From: Protoeuglena noctilucae
Taxonomy: Eukaryota; Chlorophyta; Pedinophyceae; Marsupiomonadales; Marsupiomonadaceae
Assembly (NCBI GenBank): GCA_958009085.1
Contig: OY253682.1
Location: forward strand, 915,795-979,794
DNA: 64,000 nucleotides
Direction of reading: 5' to 3'
In this document: positions 6,929-37,400 of the stretch, one piece after another
Numbering within the stretch: position 1 is the first letter of the stretch
Layout of the letters: each line of letters starts with the position of its first letter
Position numbers and translations under genes: made by a program
The notes under the pieces: model-generated
The model's input: the letters and a program-made list of their open reading frames with translations, nothing else
Told to the model about the DNA's origin: nothing
Database searches by the model: none

Positions 6929-9900
6929 ATGTCGCGCGAGCAGGCCTCCAGGAAGCGGCGGCGCGCCCCGCCAGATGCCTCTGATGTCGGAGATGCCGTC
7001 CATGCGGAGCGCCTGCAGGAGCAGCGCCGCGCGCTCCCCATCTGGCAGATGCGGGCGGAGCTGGTCGCGCTCATCCGCTCCAACGCGCGCCTCGTGGTCA
7101 TCGGGGAGACGGGCTCGGGCAAGACGACGCAGCTCCCGCAGTTCCTCCACGAAGCGGGCTTCACGGTGCGTCCCGTCGCGCGCCGCGCCCGCGGGGCACT
7201 CGCAACGCACGCCGGCGTGGAATGGCACCCCCGCGCCGAACCCTCCGCCGCTCCGGTTCCGCGCAGGCCCGCGGATGCATCGCGTGCACGCAGCCGCGTC
7301 GCGTGGCGGCGGTGTCGGTGGCTGTGCGCGTGGCAACCGAGACGGGGACCGCCCTTGGCTCCCTGGTGGGCTACCAGGTCCGCTTTGAGGAGCGGACGAT
7401 CCCAGCGACGAGGATCAAGTACATGACGGACGGCATGCTGCTGCGGTGAGGCGCAGAGGAGGTTTTTGGCCGCCCTGGCGTGGCTGCTACGCCATGCGTT
7501 GCTAGTACTATCGACTGCGGCGGGTGTCACCGCAAGCCTGACCCTTTCCCTTCCCCTGTGTGCTCCCCCAGGGAGGCTCTGTCGGACCCCTCCCTTTCCC
7601 GCTACTCCGCGGTGCTGGTGGACGAGGCGCACGAGCGGTCCGTCCACACCGACGTTCTCTTGGGACTGCTGTTGCAGCTCTCCCATCGCCGCCCCGACCT
7701 AAGGCTCGTGGTCATGTCGGCCACGCTGGATGCCGGCGCCTTTTCTGCGTTTCTGGGTAATTGCCCGATTGCCACTGTGCGCGGGCGCACCTACCCCGTG
7801 CGCGTGATGTACCTGAGTCAGCCGGCGGAAGACTACGTGGAGGCAGCCATGAACGCCACCATGCAGGTGAGAGTGAGTGGGGTGTGTGTGGGTTAATGGT
7901 AACGGGGTGCAACCATGCGGTATGCGCATGTAGTGTCCATCTCTCCATTTGCGTTTGTCTGTCCCTCCCTGCCCTGCCATTCCCTTACATTAGTAGTATT
8001 TGACACCTCTCCCTCCCCCAGGTCCACGCCGAGGAGTCTCCTGGCGACGTGCTGGTGTTTCTGACGGGGCAGGAGGAGATCGAGGCGGTGGAGAGGCTGC
8101 TGAGGGACAGGGCAGAGGCATACGAGGTGAGAGAGATGAAATGAGTGGGAATGTGGCAGTACAGGAATGGTCAAGAGTTGAGGATGGAGATGGATGGGAA
8201 TGTGGCGATGGCTGCGCATGTGTCACCACCGTGCATCTGCCACCCCATCCAATGCGCCTGTTCTCCTCCCCGCAGCGCGCCTCGCTGCTGGCGCTGGCGA
8301 GGGAGCACGAAATCACAATCCGGGAATTGGACATAGCAGGGGAGGGGGGCGAGGGGCGAGGGGCGGATGCGGGGGCAGACGGCAGCTTGCCAGAAACGTC
8401 CGTGTCGCCAGGGGCACCTGCACCCTTGTCTGTGGATGAGGCATTCGATAAACAGAACGCGGGCAGGGTGGCGGCGGCGGTGGCGGCGGGGAAGGGGAAA
8501 GTGGGGCGGGGGGGGGAGGGGGCGACAGCGGTGGCATTGCGCGTGAGGGGGGAGCTGGAGGGCCGGGTGCATGGGAGCAAGGGAGGTGAGTGAGGGAGTG
8601 ATGAGATGGGGCAGATTCGTACAGACGCAAATACACACACACGCTGCCCTCACGTCATCAACGCATCCCAACCACTCGCCCACTTTCCCTCTACACATCC
8701 CCCTCTCCCCAACCGCAGCCCCCACCCTCACCACCGCTGCCCTCATGTCACCCTCGCCTTCTCCCCTCACTCGCAGCCCCCACCCTCACCACCGATGCCC
8801 TTCCCTCTCCCTTTCTCCCCACCCGCAGCCCCCACCCTCACCACTGATGCCCTCCGCTCCCTCCTCCTCTCCCGCGGCCTGCCCCCCACCGCCCTCCGCA
8901 ACGCACGGGGCGGCCCCTTGCACCTCTCCCCCCGCCCCCTCTTCGCCGCGCTCTCCCCCGAAGCCCAACTCCGCGCCTTCGCGCCCGCACCATCGCATGC
9001 CCGAAAGGCGATCCTGGCCACTAACATCGCCGAGACGAGCGTGACGGTCAGCGGGGTGAGGTACGTGATAGATGCCGGTCTGGTCAAGTCGCGTGGCTAC
9101 AGTGCGAGGATGGGCGCGGAGTCGCTGTTGGTGGTGCCCGTCAGCCGGGCACAGGCGGTGCAGCGGAGTGGGCGGGCGGGGAGGGAGGCGCCGGGGGTGG
9201 CGTTCCGGCTCTATACGGAGGAGACGTTTGTGAGGGAGCTGGCGGAGGTGAGGGTGTGTGGGTGTGTGGGGGGGGTGGATGCAAGGCACGTTTGTGAGGG
9301 AGCTGGCGGAGGTGAGGGGGTGGGAGTGGGGGGTGGGAGGTTTGTTTGAATGAGCTAGGCTTTGTATGAACTGGTGGAGGTGGGGGGTGTGTGAGTGGAT
9401 GCGAGAGGGGGTGGTGCAGTTGTAGTCGACTTGCTGAGTGGTGCGCACAGTACGGTACTATCTATAAACAAACGCATGGTGCAGCAAATGGCCGACTTAC
9501 CCTACCCCACCCCTTCTCTCCCCCCCCACCCCTCCAGTCTACTCCCCCAGAGATCCTTCGATCGAATCTCGCCTCCGTGGCCCTCCAGCTTAAAGCCCTG
9601 GGCGTGGACGACCCCCTCTCCTTCCCCCTCATGGACCGCCCCCCCCGCGACGCCCTGATGCGTGCGCTTGAAACTCTGCTGGCGCTGGGGGCACTGGACA
9701 AGAGGGGGAGACTGACAGAGACGGGGTGAGTGATTTGCTTTGTCTCAATGAGAATGTGGATGGCACTGGGGGCACTGGACAAGAGGGGGAAGGCAGACTT
9801 TCAACCCACCACTCTCACCCCACCCCCAGTCGCTCCATGTGCCTGCTCCCCCTCGACCCCATGTTCTCCCGTGCTCTGCTCAAATCCATAGAGCTGGGCT

Positions 9901-34400: not shown

Positions 34401-37400
34401 CCCCGCCGCATCGCACTCGTGATGGGGCCGCCGGGCACCGGCAAGACGCGGGCAGTGGGGGCGCTGGTGGGGGCATTGCTGCTGCAAAAGAGACGGGCGC
34501 TGGGGAGCGTGCTGGGTGGTGGTAACCATCAACGCAGCGACAAGCGGGGGGTGGCGATAACAGCGGGAAGCAATCGCGGCGACAGGCGGGGGAATGAAGT
34601 AACTGCGGCAGTGGGGGATGGGCGTGTGCGTGTCTTGGTGTGCGCGCAGTCCAATGCGGCTGTGGATGAGGTGGCGTGTAGGCTAGCGAGGGACGGGGTG
34701 GTGGGTGCGGACGGGAAGCATCGGAAATGCAGGGTGGTGCGGATGGGGAAGGCGGATGCGGTGTCGGTAGAAGCGAGGGCATTGCTGGTGGATGTGGTGG
34801 CGGGGGAGGGGGAGGGGAGGGGGGAGAGTCAAGAGGTGGTGCGGCTGAGGGGGCGGGAGAGGGAGTTGAGGGAGAGGCTGGGGGTGTTGCGGGCGGAGAG
34901 GGCGGAGCTGGAGGGGGGGGGTGGAGGGGGTGGGGGTGGGGGGCGGGGAGGGCGGTGAGGGGCAGAGAGAGGGTGAGGGAGAGGGAGAGGGGAATGAGAG
35001 GAAGGGAGCAGGCAAGGGAGAGGGAGAGGGGGAGGGGGAGGGTGGGTCAAGCAGTGTCAGTGCGCGTGTCGACCGTCTCCGTGCGTTGAAGCGGGAGCAG
35101 TGGGAGCGTACGGAGGAGCTGCACGCGGTGAAGGCGGCACTGCAGAGAGAGAGGCGAGAGATGGGTGGATTGATGTGGGATGAGGGGTTGTAGCTGTGTG
35201 TGCATGCCACTCCCCCCTCTCCCCTCTGCAATGACCGCCTGGACCGCCTCTCTTTCACACAACACCATCACACCCAACCCCTCACTCTCTCACACCCATC
35301 ACACCCACCCACACTATCACACAAACTCCCCCCCCTCCCCCCCCCCCCCCCCCCCCCCACCAGTGACCGCCTGGACCGCCTCTCCGCCGACCGCCGCCGC
35401 GCCGCCCTGCTCTCCGCGGACGTCGTGGCATGCACCCTCTCAGCAGCGGGGGGGGAGCTGGCGGGACTGCTGTCCGGCGCATCTCACTGGCGCGGATTCG
35501 ACGCGCTGATCGTGGATGAGGCGGCGCAGGCACTGGAGCTGGCGTGCCTGGTCCCGATGACGCTGCTTGGGGCAGAGGCAAGGGTGGTGTTGGTGGGGGA
35601 CCCGCAGCAGCTGCCGGCCACGGTGATGTCCAGGCACGCGGGGGCAGCCACGCTCGCACAGTCCATGGTGAGACACTGGGGGGGGGGGGCGATGGTAGTG
35701 ATGGCTACGCTCAGTCCATGGTGAGACGAGATAGGGGGTGGGGGGAGACGATGGTTGATGAGGAGGCGATGGTGGTTATAAGTACACTCACTGCCACCCC
35801 CACTGCCGCCCCCACTGCCACCTAGCACACCCCCCCCCCCCCCCCCGTCCCTCCCCCCCAGTTCGAGCGCCTGCACCGTTCCCGCCACGCCGTGCTCCTC
35901 TCCCAGCAGTTCCGCATGCACCCCGCCATCTGCGCCTTCCCCAGCCGCTACTTCTACGCATCGCGGCTGACCTGCCACCCCAGCGTGACCGACACCACTC
36001 ACGCCGCACCCTGCCACTCTGCGCCCGCACTGGGCCCCCTGGTGATGTGGGATGTGAGGGGAAGGGAGGCGAGGGGCGGGGGTGCGGGTGGCTCTATGTG
36101 CAACACAACTGAGGCAGCCACGGTCGCCGCATTGCTGTGTTCGCTAAACAGTGCCTATCCCAATCACGGCATGCGAGTGCTCGTGGCCACTCCCTACCAG
36201 GGACAGGCGCGGGCGCTGAGGGAGGCGATGGAGGGGGCGGGGGTGGAGGGGGTGGAGGTGGCCACGGGTGAGGGGGGGGCGTGCATGCATGCGGGGTGTG
36301 TGTGTGTCTGTGTGTGTGTTATGGATGAAGCTCACATGTCATGCAGATGCTGTGTCTGTGCATTGAGCTGATATGACATGCATCGCATGCGCATTTCCCC
36401 ACTCTCATCTCTCCCATCCCTCTCTCATCACCCCTCCCCCCAGTCGACGCCTGCCAGGGCCGCGAGGCGGACGTCGTCGTCCTCTCCACCACGCGCGCAC
36501 GGCACGACGCCCATGCACTCTTGCAAAGAGGCACTACTGCACCCGCGCGCTCGTCAGCGGTGGGATTCCTCTCCGATGCTCGCCGCATGAACGTGGCCAT
36601 CACGCGCGCCCGGAGGTGCCTGTGGGTGGTGGGGCACGCGCCCACCCTCTGCACCGACCCGGCCTGGAGGGACATGGTGAGGGGGACATTGGGTTATGTG
36701 TAATGAGAAATAGGCAGAGTGAGGGATATGGGATAGGGATGGATGGGCAGTGTGGGGGCTCTCTCGTGTTTGTTCTCAACTCGCACGACCATGCTTACTA
36801 GTATCGTGATGTGGACGCGCTCCGCCCTCATCCCACTCACCCCACTCATTACTCATCCCACTCATCTCCCTCATCCCACTCATCCCCCTCACTCCCCCCC
36901 CAGGTGTTGGACCTGGAGAGTCGTGGGCTGGTGTTCACGGCACCCAGTCCCCACGACATGCCCCATGCATTGAAAAGGAGCGCAGGGGAGCTGAGGAGCA
37001 CGGAAGTGACGAGGATGGCGCAGCGACTGCGGGGGGCGGGGGGAGAGGGGGGGCAGGGGAGGGAAGCGGGTGCGGTTACTACTGGGGGGGTGGCGGGAAC
37101 TGGGGTTAATGCCAAGCGTGGGAGGGGAGAGGGCGATGCGGGGGCGGTGGGTGCCGGTCGCTCTTTGCCCCGCGTGGCTGGGGCATCGGTGGCTGCAGAG
37201 GGGGAGGGGCCGGTGGCAAAGCGGCCGAGGGTGCAGGGGGGGGAGTTGCAAGTGGGGGTGACGAGTGCGGTGGAAGCAAGTGTACAAGCAGCAAGTGCAG
37301 TTGCGACAACTGCCAAGGCACCAAGTGCATTGGAACCCAGTGCATTAACACAAAGCACGGTCCCCACTGCAACACCGATGCGGTCGGCACCCATCGCCAG

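Follow-up and report, generated by a model that had tools for sequence, protein, structure and literature searches.

The region examined here is a stretch of 64,000 nucleotides from the green alga Protoeuglena noctilucae (contig OY253682.1, positions 915,795 to 979,794 of the forward strand), the whole of which is called the window below. It forms the right end of its contig in a 26.3-Mb assembly of 26 contigs, and its GC content was 62-73% in 4-kb steps. A GGTTAG array at window positions 63760-64000 closes the contig and marks a telomere of the TTAGGG type. The translated gene models include a DEAH helicase (DHX33/DHX8-like), for which many chlorophytes stood near the top of the 120 matches listed (best identity 60%), a protein kinase (NEK-like in the original prediction), and a helicase with AAA_11/AAA_12 domains (SEN1-like in the same prediction). 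In these three genes, about a dozen sets of exon-edge echoes had been described, in which a short piece covering the end or start of an exon together with its splice site is found again inside the neighboring intron. We found that the echoes are real and that similar ones are spread over other contigs. With introns this short, the rate at which such copies reach an exon edge is close to that expected if local copying were random.

All 12 echo sets were recovered by local alignment. Among the 14 pairs aligned, 11 fell within 3 bases of the places first given for them, and for each of the remaining three (8716/8774, 32103/32130, and 32130/32155) the alignment picked out a different pair from within its trio. 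The middle copies of the two trios were seen separately, one at an offset of 58 in the masked scan described below and the other as part of a 25-base array. When the source pieces of 13 pairs, covering the 12 sets, were compared with 698-700 other introns, none of these introns held an equally good match for any pair, the comparison for set 12108/12179 extending over 9 bases only. The low-complexity sets 12428/12536 and 15246/15320, which were filtered out of the scans, were also unmatched in other introns. These copies are therefore not a product of base composition or of the splice consensus.

The pieces had been described as covering an exon edge with its splice site; 9682/9762 and 15246/15320 contain exon sequence only, and 12108/12179 is essentially intronic. 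The GTGAG in the repeated unit of set 32103 lies 13 bases downstream of the donor chosen by the gene finder (32103), and with this donor the set would be intronic. The DHX33-like acceptor triple sits in a tandem array (8703-8853, period 52), and the distances from its inner copies to the fitting one downstream are 52 and 110 bases, neither a multiple of three. The supposed confinement to three genes did not quite hold, as a donor echo was also found in a fourth gene (minus-strand intron 27084-27183). The reported lack of echoes in the compact genes after 42 kb was borne out, with strong local duplications in 12 of 76 introns before this point and in 0 of 43 after it (Fisher exact test; p = 0.004). 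Only edge copies had been listed originally; interior duplications were found in the same SEN1-like gene, one being given in the table and a second lying in intron 36677-36903. A perfect 102-base tandem duplication (100% identical) was also seen at 39678-39881, where gene prediction gave no convincing model.

The gene models were predicted ab initio by a purpose-written hidden-Markov gene finder, which was trained on the window together with 20 further stretches of 10 kb and then applied to another nine. The sampled DNA amounted to 354 kb, about 1.3% of the genome, and names such as L007, L009, and L017 denote stretches outside the window. The gene finder's signals were AG/GTGAG for donors and CGCAG/G for acceptors, and the median intron was 125 bases long. 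In the window, about 12.7 copies of a 126-base repeat (23914-25531) lie mostly inside a predicted exon, and we take this array to resemble WD40 repeats. Two intron sets were used. The first comprised 654 clean introns, 145 of the 799 predicted introns having been dropped (120 with a flanking exon of <40 bases, 23 at ends, 1 long, and 1 with N), and the second comprised 701 introns after 44 mini-exons were merged. The best match per intron was classed as donor-side, acceptor-side, or interior, and the class counts omit exon-to-exon and 5A-type matches. The first scan was unmasked, and its low-complexity filter, applied to whole hits, removed window cases rich in G or C. Most of these are retained by the masked scan, whose masking of C-rich tracts can make acceptor-spanning matches look exon-only.

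In the masked scan at score 24, 32 of the 701 introns carried a local duplication, and 20 of these lay outside the window. Intron growth by local duplication, which the original prediction had taken up as a known hypothesis, is thereby documented, mostly in the longer introns. The frequency of duplications rose from 1/137 in introns under 90 bases to 13/95 at 220 bases or more, a trend to which the length added by the duplication itself contributes. As a control, introns of the 654 set were scanned against other introns of similar length at score 24. This yielded 0.7 chance matches per scan, 0.2 of them in the counted classes, compared with 34 observed matches of any class and 31 in the counted classes. 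Shared splice consensus or base composition, considered as a cause, was ruled out by this cross-intron comparison. The clearest case outside the window was L017:322-684, from a gene for DNA polymerase delta; here 36 bases of exon plus GTGAG recur 85 bases downstream (40/41 bases identical), and the remainder of the unit aligns too. Further echoes were encountered in genes for a CHY/RING zinc-finger protein (L021), a DUF2838 protein (L009), and a mechanosensitive-channel-like protein (L015). The duplicated cores measured 14-43 bases (one 102) at offsets of 18-186 bases.

We then examined whether exon edges stand out across the 701 introns. Two null models were simulated in match-free introns using the same detector as for the observed counts. 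In the tandem null a unit was duplicated head-to-tail, and in the insertion null a short piece was copied into the intron close by. Decay was then applied in both, with intron bases changing neutrally (up to 0.4 changes per site) and exon bases slowly. The masked scan at score 24 gave 14 donor-side, 4 acceptor-side, and 14 interior duplications, while the tandem null predicted 29% donor, 28% acceptor, and 43% interior and the insertion null 24%, 20%, and 55%. The edge share was 18/32 (56%), against 57% under the tandem null (p = 1.0) and 45% under the insertion null (p = 0.2). Earlier simulations had given edge shares of 58-64% for the tandem null on the first set, and of 50-57% (tandem) and 42-52% (insertion) in a related run. 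At scores of 22, 24, 26, 28, and 32, the masked edge share was 49, 56, 57, 62, and 67%, respectively, and none of these differs from 60%. The unmasked detector at score 24 found 13 donor, 5 acceptor, and 12 interior cases among the 701 introns, an edge share of 60% (p = 0.86 tandem; p = 0.27 insertion). This closeness to the nulls follows mainly from geometry, because units of about 60 bases placed in introns only twice as long (about 120 bases) will often reach into an exon. An apparently strong edge enrichment arises if only the 25-base core is counted as the unit, and it was removed by simulating the whole event. The idea that the copies are centered on splice junctions is thus largely not sustained, the exception being the unmasked scan at score 28 given below, and a weak donor form of it may still hold (one-sided p 0.012-0.060).

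Coordinates of the echo sets and comparison features in the window.
Feature	Position	Strand	Observation
DHX33-like acceptor edge, intronic copy 1	8716..8738	+	21/23 identical to 8826-8848; 0/700 other introns as good
DHX33-like acceptor edge, intronic copy 2	8774..8796	+	22/23 identical; offset 58 from copy 1
DHX33-like acceptor edge itself, exon start 8829	8826..8848	+	outermost copy fits gene model
Donor edge of exon 8829-9247, echo source	9224..9254	+	homologues span junction
Intronic echo of 9247 donor edge	9288..9318	+	31/31 identical; donor score 8.7 vs 8.5; unit remainder aligns, p 0.003
Exon stretch ending 16 bases before donor 9725, exon-only echo source	9681..9709	+	local alignment
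Intronic echo of that stretch, without splice site	9762..9790	+	28/29 identical; unit remainder not similar, p 0.93
Donor edge, exon end 9964	9933..9967	+	local alignment, gene model
Intronic echo of 9964 donor edge, GT kept	10025..10059	+	28/35 identical
Acceptor edge of kinase (NEK-like) exon 11397-11558	11523..11563	-	local alignment, gene model
Intronic echo of NEK-like acceptor edge	11629..11669	-	38/41 identical; unit remainder aligns, p 0.018
Donor edge of NEK-like exon 11950-12112	11945..11980	-	local alignment, gene model
Intronic echo of 11950-12112 donor edge, GT kept, offset 114	11831..11867	-	alignment
First 5 bases of exon 11950-12112 with neighboring intron, one copy of mainly intronic duplication	12108..12155	-	local alignment
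Second copy of mainly intronic 12108 duplication	12179..12220	-	local alignment
Donor edge of NEK-like exon 12541-12658	12536..12561	-	local alignment, gene model
Intronic echo of 12536 donor edge	12428..12453	-	26/26 identical; purine-rich on coding strand
Exon stretch 6 bases inside exon 15314-15447	15320..15340	-	local alignment, gene model
Intronic echo of 15320 stretch, low complexity, without splice site	15246..15266	-	21/21 identical
25-base unit x2.7, at or just past donor of SEN1-like exon	32104..32171	+	tandem array; donor position uncertain
Acceptor edge of SEN1-like exon 35364-35667	35361..35384	+	local alignment, gene model
Intronic echo of SEN1-like acceptor edge, AG changed to AA	35229..35252	+	23/24 identical
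Donor edge of SEN1-like exon 35364-35667	35655..35674	+	local alignment, gene model
Intronic echo of SEN1-like donor edge, GTGAG kept	35708..35727	+	19/20 identical; 53-base unit aligns with gaps
Donor edge in fourth window gene (intron 27084-27183)	27171..27210	-	masked scan
Intronic echo of fourth-gene donor edge	27110..27149	-	33/40 identical
Purely intronic 38-base tandem duplication in SEN1-like gene, comparison case	29423..29498	+	repeat scan

Several observations weigh against a process that is random with respect to exon edges and uniform along the genome. The unmasked detector at score 28 gave 12 donor, 5 acceptor, and 6 interior cases, with an edge share of 17/23 (74%; p = 0.20 tandem, p = 0.035 insertion), and in the masked scan outside the window the edge share was 13/20 at score 24 and 10/13 at score 28. 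The edge excess was limited to the unmasked detector, the stricter threshold, and the insertion null. Donor-side copies exceeded both nulls in the masked scan (one-sided p 0.013 and 0.051) and also with the unmasked detector (one-sided p 0.012 to 0.060), and the ratio of donor to acceptor cases was 14:4 (two-sided p 0.031 and 0.058). Left-copy coverage within 15 bases of the donor was 3.5-fold that at intron positions 15-100 (bootstrap 1.5 to 9.3; score 22), in a measure that ignores the room needed by the right-hand copy. Of the 14 donor-side copies, 8 stop 1-13 bases past the donor, where about one third were expected (one-sided p 0.046 and 0.063), and the end positions of the donor copies agree poorly with the tandem null (KS p 0.031) and well with the insertion null (0.72). 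In addition, the rest of the unit was not detectably similar in 9 of the 14 donor-side cases. As these donor-side statistics come from small numbers, with thresholds explored along the way, we regard the observed donor lean as a hint. Duplication-bearing introns are also grouped into certain 10-kb stretches more than their length accounts for (p = 0.0008), which would not be expected from a uniform rate and which accords with the lack of duplications in the compact genes; the loci concerned are L009, L015, L017, L020, L021, L023, and window 1-42000. Coding strength near duplication-bearing introns did not differ (p = 0.78) and so offers no explanation for the clustering.

We assessed whether whole units or only short cores had been copied. 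The rest of the unit aligned (p < 0.05) in 4/4 acceptor-side, 5/14 donor-side, and 2/7 testable interior cases, the remainder being too short for the head-to-tail test in 7 further interior cases. Other cases combine a near-perfect core with spacers that are not detectably alike (for example L015:5017, 25/25; L009:3521, 25/26), which is hard to obtain from a simple tandem duplication with decay, and a short templated copy, or a tandem copy with a later deletion, is therefore more likely for this type. In an intron of the CHY/RING zinc-finger gene (L021:8553-8869, minus strand), three copies of the preceding exon end with its donor were found; across 18 bases the intronic copies match one another and depart from the exon at one shared base, and their spacers are only loosely alike. 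Serial local copying could explain this triple without function. A donor-edge to acceptor-edge pair, the signature of intron gain, was not found at score 20 in the 654 introns, and one exon-to-acceptor pair was recorded in a doubtful 60-base intron at 34218. As a check for introner elements, one stretch (window 9200-9300) was searched in the whole assembly and matched its own locus only.

We also considered whether the copied splice sites are used in place of the original ones. The DHX33-like helicase aligns with DHX8 from the Protein Data Bank across junctions 9247, 9725, and 9964 without gaps, and among the 120 matches listed, 90, 75, and 118, respectively, were gap-free within 4 residues of these junctions. 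At the echo-less junctions 10394 and 10763 the corresponding counts were 25 and 120 of the same 120 matches, and with such a range the homologue gap count is only suggestive by itself. The polymerase delta protein also aligns gap-free across the junction of its 41-base echo. The outer donors thus appear to be the ones that fit, the gap-free DHX8 and polymerase delta alignments being the clearer evidence. Conservation is poor around the acceptor triple at 8716-8828, which 2 homologues span, and its third copy is backed by the reading frame only. On the donor side, 13 of 18 rows keep the GT in the copy, with scores mostly near that of the real site; in the other 5 the alignment stops at or before the site, the T being deleted in one of them (L010:7059). 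All four acceptor-side rows of the masked scan keep the AG, while the window's 35232 copy, which came from the other scan, reads AA. The donor was lost in the weaker matches L015:7434 and L007:4578. Echo offsets were a multiple of three in 5 of 18 edge cases, showing no frame preference. In 9/14 donor-side cases a stop lies in the path of a reading frame continued as far as the copy. Mismatches with the exon were 7/145, 12/140, and 18/140 at the three codon positions, that is, at all positions with some tilt to the third. The suggestion that the echoes are raw material for alternative splicing found no support, given the offsets, the stops, and the fit of homology to the original junctions in the two genes tested. 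No function is required by any of these data.

Taken together, we consider it probable that the echoes are ordinary short local duplications arising in and around introns. This explanation rests on the copies themselves, their spread over other contigs, the near-random edge share, and the homology at the original junctions in two genes. Some echoes would be head-to-tail tandem duplications and others short spaced copies such as templated break repair may leave; error-prone repair, which the original prediction had also raised, is the origin we prefer as plausible. Since the median intron is only about 120 bases long, units of about 60 bases would frequently extend into an exon. A duplication wholly within an exon would presumably be removed by selection, and one that crosses an edge could be tolerated while the original splice site stays in use. 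Intronic copies would then decay as the exon copy is frozen by selection, and because of this frozen copy the exon part and the splice consensus would stay recognizable longest, so that the survivors look junction-centered. We infer three parts of this account: the origin by repair or slippage, the neutrality of the copies, and a weaker tolerance of acceptor copies behind the donor lean. The last part can be carried further into a possible, if doubtful, refinement, in which selection on splicing decides which copies survive. The spliceosome tends to use the first AG after the branch point, and a spare upstream acceptor would for this reason more often be harmful, whereas a spare downstream donor would be tolerated. 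The acceptor deficit (4/32; one-sided p 0.032 against the tandem null) and the well-scoring GT-bearing echo donors in 13/18 rows are consistent with such selection, but the deficit is not significant against the insertion null (p = 0.19), the masked-scan acceptor echoes all keep their AG, and the DHX33-like triple keeps three AGs.

A mutational process favoring transcribed exon ends at donors, such as break repair at stalled transcription or at G-rich donors that copies the exon end downstream, appears unlikely, even though the donor excess in both detectors, the 14:4 ratio, the ends 1-13 bases past the donor, the raw coverage peak, and the clustering by locus would all fit it. The total edge share exceeds the null for one detector, at one threshold, and with one of the two nulls only; the events are few and the thresholds were explored; and selection thinning acceptor copies would raise the donor share without any special mutation. 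We give a similarly low weight to the broader statement that in this genome short templated copies are placed preferentially just downstream of donors, the intron time and again receiving, and tolerating, exon ends whose donor looks functional. If true, it would provide a standing stock of spare donors and a source of new splice sites. That the echoes are functional decoys or alternative splice sites under selection seems very improbable: aligned echo sites do score like real ones, and the L021 triple preserves a common core and donor between differing spacers, but the missing frame preference, the stops, the mismatches at all codon positions, the homology backing the outer junctions, and the lost sites at L015:7434, L007:4578, and the 35232 copy all speak against it. 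An assembly artefact from collapsed alleles or mis-joined reads is the least credible explanation, as the copies vary from about 80 to 100% identity with substitutions and indels, on several contigs, unlike a join error.

Preferring ordinary local duplication, we regard the feature as real and replicated, its striking aspect as mostly due to intron size and to what selection preserves, and the donor bias as a leftover. The case also supplies a worked null for a tempting pattern, since random local duplications in short introns touch exon edges about half the time. It raises the questions of how splicing passes over near-identical donors and acceptors only tens of bases from the real ones, and of whether copies truly accumulate more at donor ends than at acceptor ends.

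Duplications of this kind are already known, and the present ones add a new instance of short local copying, probably through repair or slippage. Among the titles and abstract openings listed from the openly licensed literature, no account of duplications centered on splice edges was found. Short local paired duplications, termed doublets (Thomas et al. 2004), and short tandem-duplication insertions (Messer and Arndt 2007), as cited in PMC2671141 and PMC2654908, likewise involve short direct copies that are mostly tandem or close. As in doublets, the direct copies seen here are short, close together, and more alike than chance. These reports concern mammals and human according to their titles, whereas the present copies occur in a compact green algal genome with short introns, at least about half of them at exon edges. 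The work on repair-mediated duplications in vertebrates (Pace et al. 2009, PMC2671141) describes copying of nearby DNA, attributed to synthesis-dependent strand annealing, and duplicated sequences that include exons and intron splice sites, with four partial exon/intron donors in its Table 2. That work considered insertions of at least 50 bp in interrupted transposable elements and removed tandem copies within 50 bp, in contrast to the cores of 14-43 bases (one 102) and offsets of 18-186 bases found here. Introns can also be gained when an exon segment containing AGGT undergoes tandem genomic duplication (PMC3443670 and PMC2891723). This resembles the echoes in that splice-site sequence is tandemly duplicated; it creates a new intron with both ends matching the flanking exon edges, whereas here existing introns grow. 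For small tandem duplications, Schimmel et al. 2021 (PMC8355091) describe an origin at DNA breaks, where Pol alpha-primase fills in the ends and end joining follows. The section titles of that work concern human and mouse cells, and such break-derived tandem duplications are a candidate source of the echoes reported here.

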